From Polyangiaceae bacterium (lineage in GTDB: Bacteria > Myxococcota_A > Polyangia > Polyangiales > Polyangiaceae), in NCBI GenBank assembly GCA_025937895.1, contig JAICQL010000001.1:1-64000 (forward strand): DNA of 64,000 nt. Direction: 5' to 3'. Shown here piece after piece: positions 42,379 through 54,934 of the stretch (position 1 is the first letter of the stretch; every line of letters starts with the position of its first letter). A program made the position numbers and the translations under genes. The notes beneath the pieces are model-generated. The model was not told the DNA's origin. It saw nothing but the letters and a program-made list of their open reading frames with translations, and searched no databases.

Positions 42379-42828
42379 CTAGCGCCCGCGGGCGCCCGGG
42401 CCCTTCACGTGGCGGGTCACCACGATCTCCTTGCCGTCGCTCAGCGGGTGGACGGCAAAGCTGTGGGTCATGCGCAAGACGGCGCCCAGGCCGCCGCCGA
42501 TTCCCTTGCGATGCAGGAGCTGCATCGGGTCCAGCGGGCCGCGATCGTCGCAACCGTCTTGCAGCGCGATGCTCAGATCGTGGAAGGGGGGTCCGTAGTC
42601 CCTGGCCACCACGCTGATGCCACGCCCTCGCCCCTCTTGCGGCTCCAGTCCGCTGAAGGTCAGGCAGCCGTGCCGACCATACTTGATGATGTTGGAGCCC
42701 AGCTCCGAGGCCACGATGGCCAGCTCCGTCGTCTCCCGCGGCTGAAAGCCCAGCTCACCGGCAAAGGCCTTCACCGCGCCACGCGCGGCGAGCACGTCGA
42801 CCCAGACGCGGATCTCGAAATTGGGCAT
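42379..42828 (-). CDS. RsbT/RsbW-like histidine-kinase-type ATPase
   Basis: A 149-residue GHKL ATPase domain protein. The N box is in ELAIVASELGSNIIKYG, the G1 box in VVARDYGPPF and the G2-like glycine loop in RKGIGGGLGAVLR. Its Ser/Thr kinase or anti-sigma relatives phosphorylate STAS proteins. It is the last gene of the six-gene partner-switch operon, 18 bases after the second STAS gene. It is the second RsbT-like ATPase in the operon, so it could bind the released partner downstream of the stressosome. Confidence 0.83.
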   Translation of the reverse strand: MPNFEIRVWVDVLAARGAVKAFAGELGFQPRETTELAIVASELGSNIIKYGRHGCLTFSGLEPQEGRGRGISVVARDYGPPFHDLSIALQDGCDDRGPLDPMQLLHRKGIGGGLGAVLRMTHSFAVHPLSDGKEIVVTRHVKGPGARGR

Positions 42829-42846
42829 GTGCGGGCGGCGCGGCCC

Positions 42847-43476
42847 TCAGTCGGTAGACTCGAGCAACTGCCCCACGTACTGCTGGAGCGCGTCCCGCAG
42901 GTTGCGGTGTGTGATCACGTTGGATAGGTCCAGGCCCATGTGCACCACCGTCTGGGCGATGTGCGGGTTCATGCCCGTCAGCACACACTCGGAGCCCAGC
43001 AGCCGCACGGCCTTCGCCATGCGCACGAAGTGGTCCACGGTGCGCGTGTCCATCACGTCGATGCCGGTGATGTCGATGATGGCGCACTTGGCGCTCTTCT
43101 CCACCACTGCCCGCAGCAACGTGCTGGTCATCTCGCTGCTGCGCGCGGTATCCATCAGGCCCACCACGGGCACGCACAGCACGCCGTCCCAGACCTCCAT
43201 GATCGGCGTGGAGAGCTCCTGGATGGCGATCCGCTGCCGCTCGATCGTGGCCAGCTTGCCCTCCAGCTCCTGCTGGTAGGAGCGAGCCTTCTCCTGCTCC
43301 GCCCCCAGCGCCGCGATCATGTCGTTGATGCCCGCGTACAGGCTGGCGAGCGGACTGGTGTCGCCCTCTCGCAGCTCGAGGCGCGTGGTGTAATCGCCGT
43401 ACCCGACGTTGGACAGGACCAGGAGCGCGTCCGCGACGCTCTCCAGGATCTCTTGTTCCGCGTCTACTGTGTTCAT
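42847..43476 (-). CDS. RsbR-like STAS protein 2
   Basis: A 209-residue protein with an N-terminal sensor-like helical part (1-85, containing a HAMP-like SPLASLYAGINDMIAALG) and a C-terminal STAS domain (about 92-205). The two phosphorylatable Thr positions of RsbR proteins are kept: Thr in VMDTRTVD and in HIAQTVVHMG. No globin or PAS sensor is present. Its start overlaps the stop of the paralogous gene upstream. Together with the RsbS-like protein it would form a stressosome. Confidence 0.87.
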   Translation of the reverse strand: MNTVDAEQEILESVADALLVLSNVGYGDYTTRLELREGDTSPLASLYAGINDMIAALGAEQEKARSYQQELEGKLATIERQRIAIQELSTPIMEVWDGVLCVPVVGLMDTARSSEMTSTLLRAVVEKSAKCAIIDITGIDVMDTRTVDHFVRMAKAVRLLGSECVLTGMNPHIAQTVVHMGLDLSNVITHRNLRDALQQYVGQLLESTD

Positions 43477-44252
43477 ACTCCTCCGACTTCTTGATGGCCG
43501 CGGGCTTCGTGCGCGCCAGCGCCAGGCGCCGCCGGGCTGCCATCCTGCCCCGTGGATGTAACTGCGCTCGCCCCGCTGGCGGCTTGCGCCGCTCGCTTCT
43601 CAGTCCTGGACGCCTTCATGCTGACCAGCGCGCGCAAGGCGTCGCGCAAGGTACGGTGAGTCTCCACACCGGTGAGGTCCATGCCCATGTGCACGATCGT
43701 CTGTGAGACGTTCGGGTGTACCCCCGACAGCACACAGCGCGCGCCCAGCAGGCGCACCGCCCGGGCCGTACGCAAGAAGTGATCGACAGCCCGCGTATCC
43801 ATCACCTGGATGCCGGTGATGTCCAGGATCACCAGGCTGGCCTTGCAGCGCACGATGGTATTGAGCAACGTGCGCGCCATATCGGCGGCGCGCGCGCTGT
43901 CCATGACGCCGACGATCGGCATGCACAGCACACCGCGCCAGACCTCGAGGATCGGCGTGGTCAGCTCCGCGATGGCGGCCTCTTGCACCTCGATGGCGTG
44001 GATCTTCTGCCGCAGCTCCTCCGAGTAGAGCTCCGAGCGCTTGCGCGCCTCCGCCAGCGAAGCCACCATGTCGTTGAGGCTCGCCGTCAGCGCACCCACT
44101 GGATGGCTCTCCGGATAGCGCAGCTCCAGCGTGGGTACGGTCTCGCCCGCACCCACTCGCTGGAGCACCTCCAGCAACAGCGCGATGTTCTCCAGCAACT
44201 CCGAAGCCATGCCGGGAGCGGGGCGCGCGGTATCCAGGGCCGGGTCTGTCAT
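43473..44252 (-). CDS. RsbR-like STAS protein 1
   Basis: A 259-residue paralogue of the next gene: a helical N-terminal region (about 15-100, with HAMP-like VGALTASLNDMVASLAEA), then STAS (about 105-215) with both RsbR-type Thr positions (VMDTRAVD, NVSQTIVHMG). A low-complexity tail of about 40 residues follows. It starts four bases after the RsbS-like gene and overlaps the second RsbR-like gene, so translation is coupled. Likely a stressosome shell protein. Confidence 0.87.
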   Translation of the reverse strand: MTDPALDTARPAPGMASELLENIALLLEVLQRVGAGETVPTLELRYPESHPVGALTASLNDMVASLAEARKRSELYSEELRQKIHAIEVQEAAIAELTTPILEVWRGVLCMPIVGVMDSARAADMARTLLNTIVRCKASLVILDITGIQVMDTRAVDHFLRTARAVRLLGARCVLSGVHPNVSQTIVHMGMDLTGVETHRTLRDALRALVSMKASRTEKRAAQAASGASAVTSTGQDGSPAAPGAGAHEARGHQEVGGV

Positions 44253-44256
44253 CGCC

Positions 44257-44688
44257 TCACCGATTCTCGGAGATTTGCGCCGTCCCGGCGCCCTGGCGAT
44301 GGCGGCGGATCGCCTTCTGGTCGGGCTTCGCCACGCCCAGCAGCGACAGCGCCCCTTCCAGATCCAGTGAGCTGGTGATGTTGTCCAGGTGCACGCCCAT
44401 GGTCTCCAACGTCAGCGCGATCTCCGGCTTCATGCCGCAGATGACGGTCTGTGCTCCCATCAGCGACGCCGCATCCGAGATCTGCGACAGCACGGAACAC
44501 AGATGGCTGTCGATGATCCACAACCCCGTGATGTCAATGACCAGCCCGGAGGAGCCATCGCGATAGATGCGCTCCAGGACCTCCGACATCAGACGACTGG
44601 CAACGTCATCCGTCATCTCCCCCTGAAGCGGAACCAGCAGCAGGTGCCAGAGCTTGATGATGGGAATGTTGTTGTACGCTTCGTCCAT
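44257..44688 (-). CDS. rsbS: RsbS-like single STAS-domain protein
   Basis: A 143-residue lone STAS domain. DITGLWIIDSHLCSVL places Ser where RsbS is phosphorylated (Ser59 in Bacillus subtilis). EIALTLETMGV corresponds to the second RsbS site region. It lacks a sensor domain, as RsbS does. Gene spacing is three bases from the phosphatase gene and four to the RsbR-like gene. It is expected to bind the RsbT-like kinase inside the stressosome. Confidence 0.85.
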   Translation of the reverse strand: MDEAYNNIPIIKLWHLLLVPLQGEMTDDVASRLMSEVLERIYRDGSSGLVIDITGLWIIDSHLCSVLSQISDAASLMGAQTVICGMKPEIALTLETMGVHLDNITSSLDLEGALSLLGVAKPDQKAIRRHRQGAGTAQISENR

Positions 44689-44691
44689 GGG

Positions 44692-45252
44692 TCACTCGAG
44701 ATCTGCGATGAGCACGGTGGCATCGTCATAGCTGCGGCGGTGGCGCCGCAGCAGCCCGTCGCATGCGAGCTGCGGCGACGCTCCCTGAAACTCGGGAATG
44801 CTGGTCGGATTGGTGAGCCCGTCGGAGAACATCACCAGGCGGCAGGGAGACGCCAGTGTCGTCTTGCAGACACGAAACTTCTGGACGCGGACGCCCAGGA
44901 TCCCGGCCGAAGACACCAGCGGCACGTCCGCCCGTTGTGGCCGGAGCTCCACGTTGCCCACGGAGCAGGCCCACAGCTCCTTGCCCCGGACCAGGCAGAC
45001 GGCTCCTGCGGCGCCCCGCGTCCCGCGCATGGCGTCGTGCAGCGTAGGCATGAGCTGGTCCATGCTCGTGTCGAGCGAGACCTCATTCAGGTAGCGCAGC
45101 GCCGCCAGCGCCGCGAGCTCTGCCTCCGGCCCATGCCCAAGCCCATCGATGACCGCCAAGAGGCTCTGCTCGCGGTCGTCCTGGCGAAAGAACGGCCGAT
45201 CGCCGTTTGCCGACTCGCCCACTTTGGGAAGTGAGGCGTGCCCCACCAGCAT
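44692..45252 (-). CDS. RsbX/SpoIIE-like PP2C phosphatase
   Basis: A 186-residue PP2C-type phosphatase of RsbX size. VIDGLGHGPEAE is the metal-binding Asp-Gly motif, SVGNVELR the following strand, MFSDGLTNPT the second Asp motif and RSYDDATVLIADL the terminal Asp-Asp motif. RsbX resets the stressosome by dephosphorylating RsbR and RsbS. The ATG 45252 starts two bases after the RsbT-like stop. Confidence 0.88.
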   Translation of the reverse strand: MLVGHASLPKVGESANGDRPFFRQDDREQSLLAVIDGLGHGPEAELAALAALRYLNEVSLDTSMDQLMPTLHDAMRGTRGAAGAVCLVRGKELWACSVGNVELRPQRADVPLVSSAGILGVRVQKFRVCKTTLASPCRLVMFSDGLTNPTSIPEFQGASPQLACDGLLRRHRRSYDDATVLIADLE

Positions 45253-45254
45253 CT

Positions 45255-45887
45255 TCAAAGCACTACCTCCGCTACGATGGACGTTCCTCGTGCGCCCGTG
45301 GTGATCTGGAAGCGATCCGCCAGACGCTTGGTTCCCAGCAGGCCCTTGCCGAGCCCGGTGCGGCTCTGATAGCGGCCGCCCATGATTTGATCGAGGTTCG
45401 GAATGCCAGGGCCGTTGTCGATCGCCGTCACCACGATCTGACTGCTGCGCGACTGATTCACGAAGCCGACCTCGATGCTGCCCTGCTGCGCGTACAGAAC
45501 GATGTTGCGCGCCAGCTCGCTGACGATGGTCGTCACTTTCTGCATCGAGAAGGCGCTCGCGCCCGCGTTCTCGCACAATCTCCGCGCCTCCGACCGTGCG
45601 GCGCTGATGTCTGCCTCCCGCTTGAGGTCGATGCGACACGAGCTGGAGTCGGAGCGCGACCGAAAGAACTCCTTGAAGCGCTCGAGAGCGTCGTGCTGCA
45701 TGCGCGGCGCAACGAACAGCTCAATCCCACGGCGCAACGCCGGGCTGCACTTGACCAGCTCCTCGCGGGTCAACGTCGCCTCGGAGAGACCCCGCTCCTG
45801 CAGCACGCGAGCGACTAGGCCGCGGGCGTTCACCCTGGACATGTAACGCTCCAGGACCGCCGTGATCGCTTCGACGTCTTTGTTCAT
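45255..45887 (-). CDS. RsbT-like switch kinase with N-terminal extension
   Basis: A 210-residue protein. Residues about 85-210 match RsbT closely: ITTAISELARNI-like VTTIVSELARNIVLYA, AIDNGPGIPNLDQIM and the TGLGKGLLGTKRLAD lid. Residues 1-84 are an extra, mostly helical domain not found in RsbT, perhaps a regulatory or docking element. RsbT phosphorylates RsbR/RsbS and, once released, activates an output. It is the first gene of the operon, transcribed leftwards. No sigma-B-like gene lies in the window. Confidence 0.87.
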   Translation of the reverse strand: MNKDVEAITAVLERYMSRVNARGLVARVLQERGLSEATLTREELVKCSPALRRGIELFVAPRMQHDALERFKEFFRSRSDSSSCRIDLKREADISAARSEARRLCENAGASAFSMQKVTTIVSELARNIVLYAQQGSIEVGFVNQSRSSQIVVTAIDNGPGIPNLDQIMGGRYQSRTGLGKGLLGTKRLADRFQITTGARGTSIVAEVVL

Positions 45888-46763
45888 CCGCCGCCCCGAG
45901 ACCTCGACAGCTGTTCACGGCGTCCCAGCCCGGGAAGTTTAGATGCAGCCAAATTCCGTAGCCGTTCTGCGCACCCTTGCTGCGCGGCCACGGCGCACAC
46001 GTAGCCCTACAGGCCGCGTGAAGCTGGGTTGGCACCGGCCCCTGCAGGATGTGTCCTCGCCAGCGGACAGCCTCCCGCCCTCCGAATCGTGTCTCTCGTC
46101 CACTCTGCAGGACACCTCGCCGAGCGTTCTCAGCGCCACACGGTTCGGCGCAGCGAGCCCGCTTCACCGCGTCCGCGGCAGACACGCTGGCGGCAGCCAC
46201 GGCTCGCGGAGGCTGAATTTGTGCCATATCGTGCGCCCGCGGTGTCCCACCGCCTGGCGCAACCCGAGTGATACGACCAGGCGAGCTAACCCCTAAGGGT
46301 GTCTTGCCACACTAAATCACTCGTGAGACAGTGGCTCTTGGTGGGTGAGCATGAGCGGGATGAACGCAAAGCTCTGCGCGCGAGCATGACTGGAGGCAGG
46401 ATTGTCCGCACGGGGTCGAGTTGTTTCATCGGCTGTAACACAACTTCGGCTAGCCCATTTTGGCCACCTCGTTTGCCGGCGCCGTCTCGGGGCTGCCCGG
46501 CACGACATCGTCTACTCAGACGGCGTATGAGAGACACGAGATCAGCAACCACAGGGCATCCTTGCGGCGTTGCTGTTCTCGCCAGTGGCCCGCTCCGTCG
46601 CCGGGCATCTTCGCCGGCGCTCCCTCGAGCCTGGGGCAGCGCCGGGCCTCCTGATTGACTTTCCGAGGCGGCGGGGGGCCTTCGCGCGCTCCGATGCCCA
46701 CTGACAACCGTGACTGAAGGCCTCCGTGTTTACGCCACACGCTGGCCGAAAGGATGGACTTGC
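45888..46763. other. long divergent intergenic region
   Basis: About 880 bases separate the stressosome operon (leftwards) from the IDO-fusion gene (rightwards). Short open frames occur on both strands, but none shows a domain, a good ribosome site or the expected codon bias. Around 46290-46440 the sequence is somewhat richer in A/T. Promoters for both transcription units should be here. Confidence 0.5.
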
Positions 46764-49652
46764 ATGCTGCGTTCCACGCCGATCGAGCGTTCTATCCAGC
46801 GGACCGCCTCCTCGAATGGGCTGCTGGGTAGTGTGTCAGAGGCACACGGGTTGATGCCGGCGACGGCGCCGAGCACCAAGTTGCCGGAGCCACTCTCCTT
46901 CATCGACGAGTGCCTCGCCGAGCTCCCGAGGCTTCTTCGCAAGGGTCGAGTGTGCCGCCGACTGATGGAGCTACCCGTGGTTTCGGATGCCGAAATTCGG
47001 CGGCTCGACTGCGAGGGCAAGCTGCGGCTCAGCATGGCGTACGGCTTCTTCGCGTACTCCTTCCGTTACGCTTGGGAGCACGGTCGCGAGCGGCTACTGC
47101 ACGACGGCGAGCCCTGGGCCAGCGCGCCACCCGCTGCCGGAGAGGATCCGTGCGCACCTGCCTCGGGCACGATCGCCAGGATACGCCGGAACATCATGCT
47201 CCCCTGGCGCACGCTCTGGCAGGAAATGGGCCGTACGCAGCCCTGCTTTGAAGGCGACTTCTTCACGCGGAACTTTCGTGCGACAGGAGCCTACGGGGGC
47301 GGCTCGAGCGTCGGTCAGGACAGCTGCGAGCTCGCGTTTCGAATGTTTGACAGTGAAACGGAGCGCGTCTTCTTCCTGGGTGTGCAGGAGGTGACGGCTC
47401 GCTTCAACTGCCTGCCTGCGCTCGTGCGCATGCAGCGCGCGATGGCTCGGGGTGAGCACGAGGCAGTCGCCGCAGCGGTCGATGAGATCACGGTCCTCTG
47501 GGGGCGCGTGGTCGAGGACGTGTTCATGCGCTTTGATACGCGCATCGATCCCGCGGATTGGGCGGCCACCGTCGGCACCTGGACGGCGTCCCCGCTGCCC
47601 GGGCGCGACGGGTTCTCCGGCATGTTTTTTCCTGCGTTTCACATGCTGGACGTGCTGCTGGGGCGCGTCCGCTATGGGACCACGATGGGAAAGCTGATCG
47701 CCCACACCCGAGGGGAGCTGCTGCCCGCCTGGCAAGATCTGTTCGCCGCCATCGGCGAGGCTGACTTGCGCTCGTATTGCGAGCAGCACGGTCGCGAGTT
47801 TCCCGAGCTCCTGCGTGCCCTCGTTCGCCTGCAGGATGCCTATCAGCACTTCTTTCTGGTGCACCGGCGCAAGGTGTTCGCCTTCGAGTATCAGGGCATC
47901 GTCACCGGTCGAAATTCCACGAACGCCGGCATCGCCGTGAACATCAAGGACCGCACCGTGGAATCGGTCTTCAGCTTGGCCACTTGGAACGAGATCGACG
48001 ATCTCTTGCTGGAGAGCGGAAGAGAGCGGCCCCTCGAGCGGCTGGCAGCGGGCCCGAAATGCCCGTTCTCGGGCGCAGCTCTGGCCGACGACGCCCCGAA
48101 GGCGTTCCCCCCTGCGATTGCAACGGGCTGCCCATTTGGGGCAAGCGCCGGCGCCGGGAGCGCAGGCGCAGCCCCGGCACAGGTGTCGTTGCCCGCCTGG
48201 CGGCCCTTGCCGGGCGCTGAGTATCCGGGCCTTCACGGGCTGGAGCTCGACTCGCTGCCCGTACCCCCACAGGTGGGCGATCGGCTGGCGCTCTGGCTCG
48301 ATCCCGACGGAAAGGAAAAGGTCGAGGGTGACTTCATGGGGTCGCTGCGGCCTCCCTATCTGGTCCGCACCGCAGCCGCCGTCGGGCAACTGCACGGAGT
48401 TCAGCTCCTGCGGGGGATATTCGCTCGCGAGCCCGGCGCTGGGCCGCACGCGGACCACACGCGCGATGCGCCGGTACTGCTCATCGCGCAGGGGCGCCAC
48501 TCGGTGCTGGCGTCGACCTTGATCGAGCACGTTCGCTCCGAGCTCTTCGTGCTGCTCGAGGCACCCCCGTCCGAGAAAGCCCTGCTGGCACGGTTAGGGG
48601 TGCCAGCCGACGCGGTGACGACCGTCTCGGACCTCAGCCAAGCTTCCGTGGACGACGTATCGGAGGCGTGCGGCCATTCGCGCAGCACGCTTCGTGCGCT
48701 GCGCGACCGCTCGTTGATCTATGTGTCGGGCTCCCCCGAGTTCGTGAAGCGCGCGAACGCCTGGCTCGCTTCCGCGTTCCTCGAGCCGCAGGAGCCCATC
48801 ACTGCGTTCTTGTCGGAGCTCCGCGAGTCCAAGCGCTACCGCCCGATGGTCCAGGCCGGTTCTGCAGCCGCCGAGGAGAACTCGGTCATGTATCCGTGGG
48901 ACGTCATCGGCGCGAGGCGTTATCCGCTGCGCGTGGTCCTGAACGGCAGGGTCCTGGATCTCACGCAATTTCAGGCCGTACACTACGGCGGCACCCCGAT
49001 CTTGCGGATGCTGGCCGGCACCGACGTGAGCGCAGAGTTTTCACGCGCCCATCCTCAGCAGCAGATCCGCATGCCGGACGTATACGCGGTGGCCTCCTTT
49101 CGCGTCCCCGCAGGGCTGGAGCGGCTGACTCGCCTGAGCTTCATGATTGCACGTTCTGCGAACGTGCTGAATCTACTCGACGACATGCTGGCGCCTTACG
49201 GCGCTCACGCGCGGCCCCGAACGCAGCGCCTGTGCCGCGTGCTGGAGACGCTCGATGTGGAGACGCTCTGGTCCACACGGCTCGCTCGCGCCCTTGGCGG
49301 TGATATCCAGCCGGCGATTCAGGAGGCGCTGAGGGCAAATCACGCGCTCGCGCTGGTGACGCTGGAGAACAGCTTGCGGAGCTCCGAGCTGACCGATCTC
49401 TCGGCAACGTTTGCCGCGCAATACACGAGCCTCTACGAGGACGTGCTGCAGAACCTCGTCCGAGGTCTGCGCGAAAGCGTCACTGCCGTGAACCGTCCGC
49501 TCGATCGCAAGGCGCTGGCCCGTTGTTTTGGCCGGCATGTACAGATCTTGCTGGAGCGCGGCGCCCGGCGCTCGGCGCAAGATCCCCAGGTTGCCAGGGT
49601 TCAGCCCTGGGACGCGGAGACCGCGCCCGTGGTGCCCGAGGCCCTCGCCTGA
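46764..49652 (+). CDS. IDO/PrnB-like heme domain fused to reductase-like and cytochrome b5 domains
   Basis: A protein of about 962 residues with a multi-domain plan. Residues about 50-430 resemble indoleamine 2,3-dioxygenase-type heme enzymes (helical blocks, MFFPAFHMLDVLLG, and candidate proximal His367 in LVHRRKVFAFEY). A linker follows with two Cys-Pro motifs (CPF at 433 and 456). The segment about 470-675 weakly resembles an NAD(P)H/flavin reductase (APVLLIAQG, IYVSGSPEFVKRA). Residues about 720-770 are a cytochrome b5 domain with ligands His740 (HYGG) and His763. The C-terminus is helical. Cytochrome b5 and its reductase are IDO electron donors, so self-sufficient activation is plausible. 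ATG 46764 has an AAGGA site; GTG 46710 is possible. Confidence 0.72.
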   Translation: MLRSTPIERSIQRTASSNGLLGSVSEAHGLMPATAPSTKLPEPLSFIDECLAELPRLLRKGRVCRRLMELPVVSDAEIRRLDCEGKLRLSMAYGFFAYSFRYAWEHGRERLLHDGEPWASAPPAAGEDPCAPASGTIARIRRNIMLPWRTLWQEMGRTQPCFEGDFFTRNFRATGAYGGGSSVGQDSCELAFRMFDSETERVFFLGVQEVTARFNCLPALVRMQRAMARGEHEAVAAAVDEITVLWGRVVEDVFMRFDTRIDPADWAATVGTWTASPLPGRDGFSGMFFPAFHMLDVLLGRVRYGTTMGKLIAHTRGELLPAWQDLFAAIGEADLRSYCEQHGREFPELLRALVRLQDAYQHFFLVHRRKVFAFEYQGIVTGRNSTNAGIAVNIKDRTVESVFSLATWNEIDDLLLESGRERPLERLAAGPKCPFSGAALADDAPKAFPPAIATGCPFGASAGAGSAGAAPAQVSLPAWRPLPGAEYPGLHGLELDSLPVPPQVGDRLALWLDPDGKEKVEGDFMGSLRPPYLVRTAAAVGQLHGVQLLRGIFAREPGAGPHADHTRDAPVLLIAQGRHSVLASTLIEHVRSELFVLLEAPPSEKALLARLGVPADAVTTVSDLSQASVDDVSEACGHSRSTLRALRDRSLIYVSGSPEFVKRANAWLASAFLEPQEPITAFLSELRESKRYRPMVQAGSAAAEENSVMYPWDVIGARRYPLRVVLNGRVLDLTQFQAVHYGGTPILRMLAGTDVSAEFSRAHPQQQIRMPDVYAVASFRVPAGLERLTRLSFMIARSANVLNLLDDMLAPYGAHARPRTQRLCRVLETLDVETLWSTRLARALGGDIQPAIQEALRANHALALVTLENSLRSSELTDLSATFAAQYTSLYEDVLQNLVRGLRESVTAVNRPLDRKALARCFGRHVQILLERGARRSAQDPQVARVQPWDAETAPVVPEALA

Positions 49653-49750: not shown

Positions 49751-50335
49751 TCACGCCCGCCAGGTCAGCTCGAAGGTGGCGCCATCCTCGCTCGGCTTCT
49801 CGGGTGACCAGCCCTGGACGGTGACGGACTCCACCGTCTTGCCGATCGCCCCGAGCCCAAAGCTGACAAAGCCGGCCGCCGTGCAGACGGCATGCTTGTA
49901 GCCTTGCATGCCCGAGGTAGCGAACCTGACAGAGTGATCGTCGAGGTTCTCGACCACGAGCTTGCCTCCGCTGCAGTCACGACGCCACAGGTCGGGCACC
50001 TTCTTCACGAGCAGCTGGGTCGACATCATCTTCATGAAAAGCTTTAGGAAGGTGTTCGTGGCTTCCATGGCCACGTGGGTGCCGCATTTGATGAGCAACT
50101 CCTTCGAGCGCTCCCCCCCGTCGCCAGCTTTCGAGATCGCGTCGAGCGCCTCCGAGAACACCGAAACAGGACACCAGTCGGCGGACTTCAGCGTCTCCAG
50201 TAGATGCCGGGCCTGCGGTGAGAAGGCGGCAATGGCCCGCTTTGCTTCCTGCTCTCCCACCGTCTGGCGCAGGTAATCGACAGCTGAAACGAACATGTAA
50301 CCGCGGACATTGAAGTCTAGCGACTGCTCACCCAT
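49751..50335 (-). CDS. DUF2378/TIGR02265-like myxobacterial protein
   Basis: A 194-residue soluble protein. The order of blocks fits the Myxococcales-restricted TIGR02265/DUF2378 family: an N-terminal FNVRGYMFVSAVDYL strand-helix, a Ser/Pro helix with W, a long middle helix with Phe-Leu-Lys-Leu-Phe, a C..GKLVVENL strand pair, and a final FELTW strand. Function of that family is unknown; a V4R-like ligand-binding fold has been suggested for similar proteins. ATG 50335 is preceded by GGGAGG. It converges with the IDO fusion gene. Confidence 0.6.
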   Translation of the reverse strand: MGEQSLDFNVRGYMFVSAVDYLRQTVGEQEAKRAIAAFSPQARHLLETLKSADWCPVSVFSEALDAISKAGDGGERSKELLIKCGTHVAMEATNTFLKLFMKMMSTQLLVKKVPDLWRRDCSGGKLVVENLDDHSVRFATSGMQGYKHAVCTAAGFVSFGLGAIGKTVESVTVQGWSPEKPSEDGATFELTWRA

Positions 50336-50740
50336 ACCTGAGATCCTCCCTCGTGCAACTCTGGCATACTTTGCCATTTGTCGCTTCCGGGGAGCAGCGC
50401 GGGCGCCGATTTCGGTGTGCCTCGGCCCCACATTCGCGGCCTACCAGCAGCTCACTGCCCAAAGAGCCGAGGGGCTGCGGGTGCGATGCGCCGCAACCCA
50501 CGCGCTCAACGCACAGCGCACGGGACGCATCGAGCATCGAGCATCGATGCACCGAACGGCGATGCGCCAGCACGATTGCGAGAGGGATCGGAGCGCTCAT
50601 CCTTCCGGGGTGAGTACCAGGCTGGGCAGGGAGCATTGCACAGCCCCCGGAGCGGTTGTTATCGTGTAGTCCCGTTCGCGACGCATCCGAGCGCGACTCG
50701 TGCGGCGTGCTCGAGACCGAACGGTGATCGAAGGAGACAC
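50336..50740. other. divergent intergenic region, 50.3-50.7 kb
   Basis: This 405-base region lies between the DUF2378-like gene (leftwards) and the HDO gene (rightwards). No gene is supported. The HDO gene has a good AAGGAG site at its end. Short CATCGAGCATCGA-type repeats occur near 50527-50545. I see no clear promoter boxes. Confidence 0.5.
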
Positions 50741-51457
50741 ATGCGACAGGTGTTGGCCAGCATAGATGCGCGAACGGAGACGTTCGCCCGGCTCACGTAT
50801 TTCCGTCTGCTAGAGCGTCCGGGGGCACGCTCCGACGTCGAGATCATGGCACGAGGGCTCTCGTTTTTCGTGATGAGCTTTCAGGACATGCTGCGGCTCA
50901 ATGCCAGGCTGATCAGCGATCCCGAGCTGAAACAGCTGGCCCTGGGCCAGCGCAAGGATGACGCCGGACATGACCTGTGGTTCTTGCATGACATTCAGAA
51001 GCTGAGTCTCGAGCCAGACCTGCGCTGGTTGTTCAGCAAGCGTCACGAGCAGACCAGGGATACGTCGTACGAGATCATCTCGCAGATCCTCACTGCCCGG
51101 AGCGATGCGGCCCGGCTCACCGTTGGGCTGGCGCTGGAGGCCACGGGCGGCGTCTACTTCAGCCGAGTGTACCGCTTCTTCTCCAGCTTCGGCCTGAGCG
51201 ACGGCTTTCAGTTCTTCTCCCGGCACCACTGGGACGCAGAGCAATCGCACGACTTACACGAGAGCCAGCTCCTCGAGCAGCTGCTGGCGCTGGAGCTCGC
51301 CCCCGAGGTGCGGAGCCAGGCACTGGCCGCGGCAGCATCCACATTCGAGGCGATCACGCGCATGTGTGAGGATCTATCCAGCAAGATGCTGGAGGCCAGG
51401 GCCCGCCAGGGCTTTCAGCCCTCGAGCGCGCTGGAGATCCAGCAGGGCTCGGCGTAG
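50741..51457 (+). CDS. heme-oxygenase-like di-metal (HDO-type) protein 1
   Basis: A 238-residue all-helical protein with the ligand pattern of heme-oxygenase-like diiron proteins: Asp74-x-x-His77 (DDAGH), Glu133 (ALEATGG) and His163-x3-Glu167-x2-His170 (HHWDAEQSH). The same spacing recurs in the product at 57092. HDO enzymes (UndA, BesC, SznF, CADD) catalyse oxidative C-C or N-oxygenation chemistry. The substrate here is unknown. AAGGAG lies five bases before the ATG. It is followed by a terminator-like hairpin and an orphan-family gene, inside the halogenase neighbourhood. Confidence 0.68.
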   Translation: MRQVLASIDARTETFARLTYFRLLERPGARSDVEIMARGLSFFVMSFQDMLRLNARLISDPELKQLALGQRKDDAGHDLWFLHDIQKLSLEPDLRWLFSKRHEQTRDTSYEIISQILTARSDAARLTVGLALEATGGVYFSRVYRFFSSFGLSDGFQFFSRHHWDAEQSHDLHESQLLEQLLALELAPEVRSQALAAAASTFEAITRMCEDLSSKMLEARARQGFQPSSALEIQQGSA

Positions 51458-51597: not shown

Positions 51598-52152
51598 ATG
51601 GGCAAAGTGAACCTGGCGGCGAGTGCGGCTCAGTCGGTGAGGTTTGAGACCCTGGGCGTCAAGCTCTTCCGCAGAGACTTTGCGTCCTCGTACGGTTGGT
51701 GGGGAAACATGGCCGTCGTGCTGGGTCGGCAGCCGCCAGACGCAGCACACGTCGTCAACTATCGCTCCTGTGTGCTCGAGCTGCACAAGCAGTTTCCGCA
51801 GGGCGTGGGCCTCATCACCGTCGTCAAAGACACGTCTGCGCCGAGCGCCAGCGGCCGCGACGCGATGCTGGCGATGTTCCGGGAGCTCTGGCCGCTGATG
51901 ACGGCGGCGCTGTTCGTGCCCAACGCCGAGGGCTTCAAGGCTGCCGTACTGCGCAGCGTGATGAGCGGGCTGGTCCTCGCCACCGGGCAGCGCGACCGCG
52001 TGCGCGTGGAGCGCTCCGTGCCTGCGGGCATGCCGTGGTTTGCCGGCAAGCTTCTGGGCGACCGTGGCGACGCTCAGCAGAAGCTGCTGCATTCGGGCAT
52101 TCAGCGCTTCTGCGAGGCAGAGTCCAGCCCCATCAGCCCACGCGCGCTCTGA
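51598..52152 (+). CDS. small orphan-family protein B (GF[KR]A..RS family)
   Basis: A 184-residue member of the same unnamed family as 10887 and 56579. Conserved blocks are LITVVKDTSAPSASGRD (strand, turn, helix) and VPNAEGFKAAVLRSVMSG, then a Val/Arg-rich strand and a PWF end. The N-terminal 30 residues differ between members. No signal peptide or catalytic signature is visible. It is positioned between HDO gene 1 and the halogenase on the same strand. Possibly a partner or sensor protein; function unknown. Confidence 0.6.
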   Translation: MGKVNLAASAAQSVRFETLGVKLFRRDFASSYGWWGNMAVVLGRQPPDAAHVVNYRSCVLELHKQFPQGVGLITVVKDTSAPSASGRDAMLAMFRELWPLMTAALFVPNAEGFKAAVLRSVMSGLVLATGQRDRVRVERSVPAGMPWFAGKLLGDRGDAQQKLLHSGIQRFCEAESSPISPRAL

Positions 52153-52770: not shown

Positions 52771-54408
52771 ATGAACGAGACACAGCAGCGCACGAACGAC
52801 GACAGTGGGATGGTTCAGAACGTGGTGATCCTCGGCGGAGGCACGGCGGGATGGATGACGGCGTCCTACTTGAAGCGGGCCTTTCCCGACCTGCGCATCA
52901 CGCTGCTGGAGGCGCCCGGTATCCCGCGCATCGGCGTGGGCGAGGCGACCGTGCCCAACCTGCAGAAGGTGTTCTTCGACTTCCTCGGCCTGCCCGAGGA
53001 CCAGTGGATGCGCCGCTGCAACGCGGCCTTCAAGGTTGCAGTCAAGTTCTGCAACTGGCGCCAGCCGCGTACGGAGTCCAGCTCCGATCACTTCTATCAC
53101 CTGTTCGGCTTGATCCCGAGCGTGGGCCCGCTCTCGCTATCGCAGCACTGGGCCCTGCAGCACAGTCAGGGTGACCCCACGGCGCTGGACTACGCCTGCT
53201 ACAAGGAGCCACCGCTGCTCGACGCCAAGCTCGCGCCGCGCCATCGCGACGGCAGCCGGGCCATGTATTATGCCTGGCACTTCGACGCTCATCTCGTCGC
53301 GGACTACCTGCGAGAGGTGGCGACTGGCTGGGGCGTGCAGCATATCGTGGACCAGCTGGAGAACGTCGAGCTCGCCGCCGATGGCTCGGTGGCTGCGCTG
53401 TACACCCGCGCGGGGCGCAAGCTCGGCGCAGACCTGTTCGTGGACTGCTCGGGCTTCCGCGGGCTCCTGATCAACAAGGCGCTGGCCGAGCCCTTCCTGG
53501 ACATGAGCGATCACCTGATCTGCGACAGTGCCGTGGCCACGGCCGTAGCACACGATGATGACGCGAACGGTGTGGAGCCGTACACCTCAGCCATCGCGAT
53601 GGATGCCGGCTGGACCTGGAAGATCCCCATGCTCGGTCGCTTCGGCACGGGTTACGTGTACTCGAGCCGGTTCCAGTCCAGGGAGCAGGCGGCGCGGGAC
53701 CTGTGCGCGCTGTGGGACCTGAACCCTGCGCGGACGAGCCTGAACGAGATTCGCTTCCGGGTCGGCCGCAACCGCCGCGCCTGGGTCAAGAACTGCGTGA
53801 GCATCGGGCTCTCCTCGTGCTTCGTCGAACCACTGGAGTCATCCGGGATCTATTTCATCTATGCGGCGATCTATCAGCTGGCCAAGCACTTTCCCGACAA
53901 GAGCTTCAACCCGACCCTGGTGCAGCGCTTCAACGAAGCCATCGAGGCGATGTTCGATGACACGCGCGACTTCATTCAGACCCACTACCTGACCACGCCG
54001 CGCGAAGACACGCCCTTCTGGCGCGCGAACAAGTATGACCTGCGCCTGTCGGACAACGTGCAGCACAAGCTCGCCACCTACAAGTCAGGTCTGGCCGTCA
54101 ATACCGCGCTCTCGCAGGCAGACTCGTACTACGACAACTTTGATTTCGAGTTCGGCAACTTCTGGACCAACAGCAGCTACTACTGCATTCTGGCCGGTAT
54201 GGGCTGGATGCCAGACGTCCTGCCGCGAGTGCGCCACGCCAGCGCAGCAGAGCTGGAGCTTGCGCAGGAGCAATTCCGCGCCCTGAAGCGAGAGTCCGCG
54301 CGCCTGGCGGGGCAGCTGCCCAGCAACTACGAGCTGCTGCGGCAGCTGCATGGGACCGCGCCGATGACGGGCACGACAGAGCGGAGGCCGCTGCGTGCCG
54401 CGGGCTGA
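52771..54408 (+). CDS. FAD-dependent tryptophan halogenase (PrnA/RebH type)
   Basis: A 545-residue flavin-dependent halogenase. FAD-binding GGGTAGW is at 22-28, the catalytic Lys is Lys88 in [10 protein letters not shown], the class signature W-x-W-x-I-P is at 281-286, and the Glu of [12 protein letters not shown] (351-362) completes the active site. Similarity to PrnA continues through the C-terminus, including the YCILAGMG region that shapes the indole pocket. It should chlorinate or brominate free tryptophan, probably at C7 as PrnA and RebH do; regioselectivity is inference. The flavin reductase overlaps its end by 14 bases. Confidence 0.93.
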
Positions 54409-54934
54409 TGACTTCCGCGCCGCTGATGACTTCCGCGCGGCGATGGCATCCTTCGCCTCGGGCGTCACCATCGTCACCACGCTGGAGAGCGACGGCAGCC
54501 GCCTTGCGATGACCGCTACGGCTTTCACGGCGGTCTCGCTGGAGCCACCGCTGTGCCTGGTATGCGTGGACCGGCGTGCCCGCGCACACGCCCCCCTGCT
54601 CCAGCACGGCTCCTTCGGCGTGAGCATCCTCGCGGCAGAGCAGGAGCCGGTCGCGGCGCAGTGCGCCGCCCCGATCCGGGATCGTCTGGCGGGGCTGCGC
54701 TGGCGGCCCGGCGCGCGCACGGGCTGCCCGCTGCTCAGCGGGGCACTGGCCGTGCTGGAGTGTCAGCTGGTGGAGGCGCACCCGGCGGGGGACCACGATA
54801 TCCTGCTTGGCCAGATCGAGTCCGTACAGGTGCGCGAAGGCAATCCGCTGCTCTACTGGCGCACCAGGTACGGGGCGCTCCGGGCAGTTGCCGCGGAGCC
54901 GGGGCAGCCCACAGCCGAGCGCCGGGTGAACTGA
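54395..54934 (+). CDS. flavin reductase, halogenase partner
   Basis: A 179-residue flavin-reductase-domain protein (HpaC/PrnF class) that would supply FADH2 to the halogenase. The core [10 protein letters not shown]...[19 protein letters not shown] is typical, followed by [14 protein letters not shown] and the C-terminal [14 protein letters not shown]...[14 protein letters not shown] start at 54395 with GGAGG seven bases upstream overlaps the halogenase stop, so the two are translationally coupled. An 18-bp duplication (54404-54439) doubles an ADDFRA segment at the N-terminus. Confidence 0.9.
54404..54439 (+). repeat. 18-bp tandem duplication at the halogenase/reductase junction
   Basis: GCTGATGACTTCCGCGC(C/G) occurs twice. 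It encodes ADDFRA twice in the reductase frame, and the first copy contains the halogenase stop codon. In-frame and probably harmless. Confidence 0.9.

Follow-up and report, generated by a model that had tools for sequence, protein, structure and literature searches.

A bacterial gene joining an IDO-type heme domain to cytochrome b5, and its outlying place in a fusion family that appears to be undescribed

The cellular reductant of IDO is still argued over. CPR, with or without cytochrome b5, supports or reduces IDO1 in vitro, while the donor that acts in vivo is unsettled (PMC13142367, PMC4191572), and one initial reducing equivalent suffices for IDO turnover (PMC12921851). PrnB and MarE have been described as stand-alone enzymes with no donor attached, and the donors they naturally use are unknown or debated (PMC11791213, PMC12312684). 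Attempts to drive PrnB with b5 or CPR failed (PMC11791213), and for the monooxygenation by MarE, which takes two extra electrons, the donor is missing and ascorbate fills in (PMC12312684).

We analyzed a 64,000-nt stretch of DNA from a Polyangiaceae bacterium (contig JAICQL010000001.1; hereafter, the window), for which a sequence-only reading had proposed that one polypeptide carries both a heme dioxygenase and its electron donor. As judged by sequence and model comparison, the gene joins an IDO-type heme domain to a predicted cytochrome b5 electron carrier. No published description of an IDO–b5 fusion was found in the openly accessible literature; an earlier mention elsewhere is possible.

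The fused gene and its domains

The features of the gene, all on the + strand, are as follows:
46764..49652, +, IDO–b5 fusion protein, 962 aa (ORF list, codon-position GC)
46815..48032, +, IDO-type heme domain, aa 18-423 (family profile, IDO fold, pLDDT)
47862..47864, +, H367, predicted proximal heme ligand, equivalent of IDO1 H346 (invariant column)
48033..48473, +, linker aa 424-570, predicted disordered, where relatives have the FAD lobe (pLDDT, no reductase profile match)
48060..48068, +, first CPF motif, C433 (motif scan; absent from relatives)
48129..48137, +, second CPF motif, C456 (motif scan; absent from relatives)
48474..48854, +, aa 571-697, low-confidence alpha/beta stretch at the NAD-lobe position, unrecognizable as reductase (model, motifs, profiles)
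48906..49097, +, predicted cytochrome b5 domain, aa 715-778 (Pfam over cut-off; family profile)
48981..48983, +, H740 of HYGG, first predicted b5 heme ligand (invariant column)
49050..49052, +, H763, second predicted b5 heme ligand (alignment)
49116..49568, +, C-terminal helical region, aa 785-935 (model; family helical-domain match at chance level)

The frame is intact over 962 codons from an ATG at 46764 (alternative start, GTG at 46710), and GC3 is about 0.80 in every 450-base block, a coding signal that is uniform from end to end. In the AlphaFold model of the protein the IDO domain is good, the b5 domain weaker and the middle poor. Within the IDO domain pLDDT is mostly 70–97, with values of 43–46 at aa 111–130. 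Residues 3–429 of the model show the IDO fold (Foldseek E ~1e-9, TM 0.80 to human IDO1; VIA Z 35.0 and 2.4 A over 352 residues to IDO2, Z 34.5 to IDO1). The IDO-type helical region read from the letters was thus recovered by structure prediction of the N-terminus, and its proposed proximal ligand, H367, aligns with the proximal His that is invariant across the fusion clade.

To judge from profile scores and the tree, the window IDO domain is closer to the fusion members than to canonical IDOs. It scores 158 bits against the fusion-family profile (shuffles at most 1.3) vs. 17.2 bits against Pfam IDO (PF01231), which is below the gathering cut-off of 26 and sets it apart from that family; the relatives tested pass this cut-off with 92–123 bits. 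A 100/100 split separates all fusion IDO domains, including that of the window, from canonical IDOs, the tree placing the window domain on the fusion side without fixing its exact position inside the clade. It is also the longest branch of the tree (tip 3.47 vs. a median of 0.36). The PrnB-like label given earlier to this domain, and with it membership in PrnB, was dropped, as the search reported no match to PF08933 at E <= 1 and the domain's affinities lie with IDO.

Residues 423–567, between the two domains, were modeled mostly with pLDDT below 50. The two Cys-Pro motifs noticed earlier are present here, at C433 and C456; these CPF motifs are heme-regulatory-like and occur in no relative. 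A reductase-like segment had also been read into the middle of the protein, and this part of the reading did not hold. The reductase profile gave -3.0 bits against 4.2 for the best shuffle, no match to the FAD-lobe profile was reported, and the protein falls short of the FAD/NAD(P)H reductase models PF00667 and PF00175. The RxYS and GGTGxxP motifs are absent from it, and YVCG reads YVSG. We therefore rejected a reductase remnant, its profile score lying below those of shuffled sequences.

The predicted b5 domain was confirmed by Pfam (Cyt-b5, PF00173; 29.4 bits vs. a cut-off of 23.7, aa 724–768) and by the family profile on the b5 region (36.8 bits; shuffles at most 3.4). Both histidines named for it aligned as proposed: H740 falls in the column of the invariant His in HPGG, and H763, 23 residues further along, in that of the second b5 His, a spacing that is also found in b5 of GGACT-type members. 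A conserved family helical C-terminus was rejected for the window protein, whose score of 7.1 bits is below the 7.8 bits reached by the best shuffle. Since the profiles of relatives recognize only IDO and b5, the layout is read as IDO – disordered linker – unrecognized stretch – b5 – helices. Of the claim that one polypeptide holds a heme dioxygenase and its donor, the IDO-type domain with b5 as a likely donor stands, but the reductase of the window copy does not.

The fusion family

Nearby genomes encode proteins of ~1550–1590 aa that match the window protein at 25–30% over the IDO region, the IDO matches in these full-length relatives having E values of 1e-29 to 1e-35. A contig scan with the window protein alone as query gave no matches, and a scan with an alignment of the relatives' IDO domains gave 21 loci, one being the same record as an earlier one. 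Fusions were found in Myxococcota, Bdellovibrionota, Chloroflexota, Pseudomonadota (a MAG), Actinomycetota, Cyanobacteriota and Armatimonadota. These seven bacterial phyla share one fusion family, apparently undescribed, in which the window protein is an outlier. The family is rare but widespread: a full-length-type IDO match was obtained in 9 of the 318 genomes of the class, and family members in 2 of 244 cyanobacteria and 3 of 296 Actinomycetota, each sample including the genome on which it was centered. Plasmids held only distant canonical IDOs. No closer relative of the short form present in the window was detected in 379 genomes of the phylum, nor in the class.

The clade has the domain order IDO – CPR-type FAD/NAD(P)H reductase – cytochrome b5 – helical domain, in some members with GGACT or FHA. 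Myxobacteria (and Oligoflexus, by sequence) have the form GGACT-IDO-FAD-NAD-b5-helical-tail, while a Chloroflexi member (L033) and one of Actinomycetospora (L041) are built as FHA-IDO-FAD-NAD-b5-helical. The extra N-terminal domain is lacking, and the reductase present, in two cyanobacteria, Anaerolineales L035 and Fimbriimonas L047. The reductase is missing from the IDO-b5-helical proteins of Streptomyces and Geodermatophilus (by Pfam) and of Herbidospora and Modestobacter (by sequence), which, like the window protein, retain b5. That the four genera retain b5 without a reductase points to b5 as the part that has to be present in cis. RxYS, GGTGxxP and YVCG occur in nearly all reductase-type members and are absent from the reductase-less ones; PF00175 is over its cut-off throughout the full-length relatives, and PF00667 under it in many.

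For one complete relative, that of Limnofasciculus, the model reached a pLDDT of 84.9 and a pTM of 0.84. Its IDO domain matches IDO2 with Z 40, and its best Foldseek matches are sulfite reductase flavoprotein (SiR-FP60), CPR and the FAD domain of P450 BM3, the match lists of the structure searches being filled by IDO and reductase folds. At the family level, then, the idea of a heme domain and its donor in one chain is upheld, most relatives holding a CPR-type FAD/NAD(P)H reductase together with b5. As in CPR and the self-sufficient P450 BM3, CPR-type FAD/NADPH lobes are fused in these relatives to a heme oxygenase domain; unlike there, cytochrome b5 takes the place of the FMN domain and the heme is predicted to be IDO-type and His-ligated, not that of a Cys-ligated P450. 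The window copy differs further in having no reductase. In having b5 as an internal electron shuttle beside a flavin domain the relatives resemble nitrate reductase, Ncb5or and flavocytochrome b2, none of which is known to carry an IDO domain.

A paralogue of the full-length type is present in the same genome as the window (L014, on G000:C1), which raises the reading of the window gene as a decaying, non-catalytic duplicate of it. The loss of the reductase, the unrecognizable C-terminus, the very long branch and the paralogue itself would all fit such decay. Yet the frame of 962 codons is intact with even codon bias, H367, H740 and H763 are retained along with the b5 and IDO motifs, and the IDO domain is modeled with confidence; we consider decay quite unlikely. 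The paralogue (L014:3534-8192, GGACT-IDO-FAD-NAD-b5) is followed by two radical SAM genes, and its GGACT domain is weakened, YFGYGSN reading HFEYGSN.

Active site and proposed chemistry

In multiple and profile-profile alignment (E 3e-43) the canonical DPxxYYxRVRPF aligns with DPVVWAKTVAPF of the fusions. The last Arg of the canonical motif we take to be R231 by homology with human IDO1, the human numbers being assigned from the human sequence motif. Fusion members share with IDO1 and IDO2 the fold, the proximal His and, overall, the pocket loop with its conserved Gly. They differ from them by the fused b5, by the replacement of R231 and F226/F227 and by the deletion of a ~20-residue stretch before the GxxG loop. 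In these alignments R231 is replaced by Ala or Gly in all fusion members (Gly in the window protein) and F226 by Trp, while the four canonical IDOs compared have Arg at the R231 position. A pairwise HMM alignment of low confidence places the R231 stretch otherwise; the residue would then be Phe, His or Tyr in most relatives and, for the window protein, Arg. Under either placement, the relatives have no conserved Arg at this position. R231 binds the carboxylate of tryptophan (PMC12921851) and, because it appears to be replaced in all fusions, dioxygenation of L-Trp in the usual mode is unlikely for them. The tryptophan chemistry expected at the outset is thus doubtful.

This bears directly on the view that the fusion is an ordinary IDO, converting L-Trp or halo-Trp to N-formylkynurenine, with b5 serving only to re-reduce auto-oxidized heme. 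The IDO fold and proximal His agree with it, as does the re-reduction of IDO1 by b5 and CPR (PMC4191572, PMC13142367), but the changes at R231 and F226 in all fusions and the loss of the ~20 residues before the GxxG loop do not. The canonical IDO gene that directly follows the fusion gene in Limnofasciculus (L048:3476-4597) and lies ~9 kb from it in Chrysosporum (G319:C58:30670-31569) cuts both ways: it associates the fusion with IDO, but a canonical IDO next door argues for a different job of the fusion protein. On balance, we regard an ordinary IDO as unlikely.

Our best explanation, in which we place middling confidence, is a putative His-ligated, IDO-fold heme oxygenase that is fed by the tethered b5 and mostly consumes reductant, acting in the window on a (halo)tryptophan-derived substrate. 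Both heme binding and the following electron path are what we infer from sequence and models. In most relatives, electrons would pass from NAD(P)H to FAD (in CPR-type lobes without an FMN domain), then to b5 and to the IDO heme, all within one chain. In the window protein the tethered b5 would pass electrons singly to the IDO heme and, because the reductase part has apparently been lost or rebuilt, would itself have to be reduced in trans. As R231 is replaced throughout the clade and dioxygenation of the IDO type can run without a continuous supply of electrons, the chemistry of the family is probably for the most part of the monooxygenase type, consuming reductant, and its substrate aromatic and probably indole-like. 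An IDO-fold oxygenase of this sort would need just such a chain as the fused NAD(P)H-FAD-b5. The strong divergence of the window protein (tip branch 3.47, median 0.36) counts against this explanation.

More tentatively, the fusions could form a family of self-sufficient His-ligated heme monooxygenases with the path NAD(P)H -> FAD -> b5 -> IDO-fold heme and a substrate other than free L-tryptophan. With the same reserve, such a family might be regarded as an IDO-fold equivalent of P450 BM3 in which b5 stands in for the FMN domain. If the family does monooxygenate, it would offer a new self-sufficient oxygenase scaffold. On evolutionary grounds, a natural fusion of IDO, CPR-type lobes and b5 is also independent evidence for the reality of the b5/CPR route, and it provides a single protein for measuring electron transfer to this class of heme enzymes.

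Gene neighborhoods

Downstream of the fusion gene the window holds the following genes:
50741..51457, +, heme-oxygenase-like diiron oxidase (HDO), closest solved structure AetD (Pfam, structure-database comparison)
51598..52152, +, unknown protein, 184 aa
52771..54408, +, tryptophan halogenase, RebH/PrnA class (E 1e-217 to RebH, ~1e-211 to PrnA)
54395..54934, +, flavin reductase, 14-base overlap with the halogenase gene (ORF list, Pfam)

The only PDB relatives of the HDO are AetD structures (E 5e-4). It keeps all six of the six diiron ligands (DAGH, E, HWDAEQSH) given for AetD in PMC11611611, as well as the substrate-facing, substrate-triggered Phe of AetD. With halogenase, flavin-reductase and AetD-like genes lying 1–5 kb downstream, the likeliest substrate of the window copy would be a (halo)tryptophan-derived indole made by the products of the neighboring halogenase genes. 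The fusion would then share with PrnB and MarE a His-ligated heme that acts on tryptophan derivatives in biosynthesis. The earlier hint at chlorotryptophan gains support from these neighbors. An opposite-strand ORF (49751-50431) separates the fusion gene from the biosynthetic genes, so their co-transcription is only putative, which counts against our explanation. HDO homologues occur in 35 of the 318 genomes of the class. A conserved halogenase and HDO cluster was rejected, as none of 12 HDO regions of other myxobacteria holds a halogenase like that of the window; the presence of an AetD-like HDO in many relatives, with no such halogenase beside it in these 12 regions, also speaks against our explanation. 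In one of the homologous loci (L074, G283:C868) the HDO homologue lies within a 1153-codon open frame, possibly another fusion.

A gene for a CBS-pair protein lies directly upstream of the fusion gene in six loci whose fusions are of the FHA or plain types (L033, L034, L035, L040, L044, L047; Pfam was run on one of the six). In L035 and L044 this protein seems to have a degenerate receiver domain, and a weak receiver-domain match was obtained in one locus. The association with FHA and CBS parts counts against our explanation and speaks for another role of the family, such as an O2/NO-handling or redox-sensing heme protein coupled to signaling. Flavohemoglobin consists of a heme domain with an FAD/NAD(P)H reductase, and the layout of the fusions resembles it. 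The FHA domains of L033 and L041, the six upstream CBS-pair genes, the GGACT domain of the myxobacterial forms and the reuse of the IDO fold as abalone myoglobin (PMC4191572) are all consistent with sensing. The window copy has no signaling domain, however, and both it and the Streptomyces copies adjoin tailoring-enzyme genes, which makes sensing rather improbable in our estimate. With tailoring-enzyme neighbors in some loci and CBS-pair genes in others, the family appears to be found in both biosynthetic and regulated settings.

In Streptomyces the fusion gene is accompanied by genes for a FAD monooxygenase, HpaB, an MFS transporter, an NmrA-like reductase, a ketosynthase, a PrnB-family protein and, as assigned by eye, an AraC regulator. 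The PrnB-family gene (L045:338-1561), a further point of likeness to the PrnB system, lies in the ketosynthase/HpaB/FAD-monooxygenase cluster adjoining the reductase-less fusion. In Chrysosporum the surroundings of the fusion gene include genes for PhyH, a sulfotransferase and an ABC transporter (L039:14800-18667), which suggests a biosynthetic cluster. Immediately upstream of the fusion gene in the window, and divergent from it, a cluster of genes for STAS-domain and histidine-kinase-like ATPase proteins of the Rsb/stressosome kind occupies 42379-45887 on the - strand, apparently together with a phosphatase-like ORF recognized by eye.
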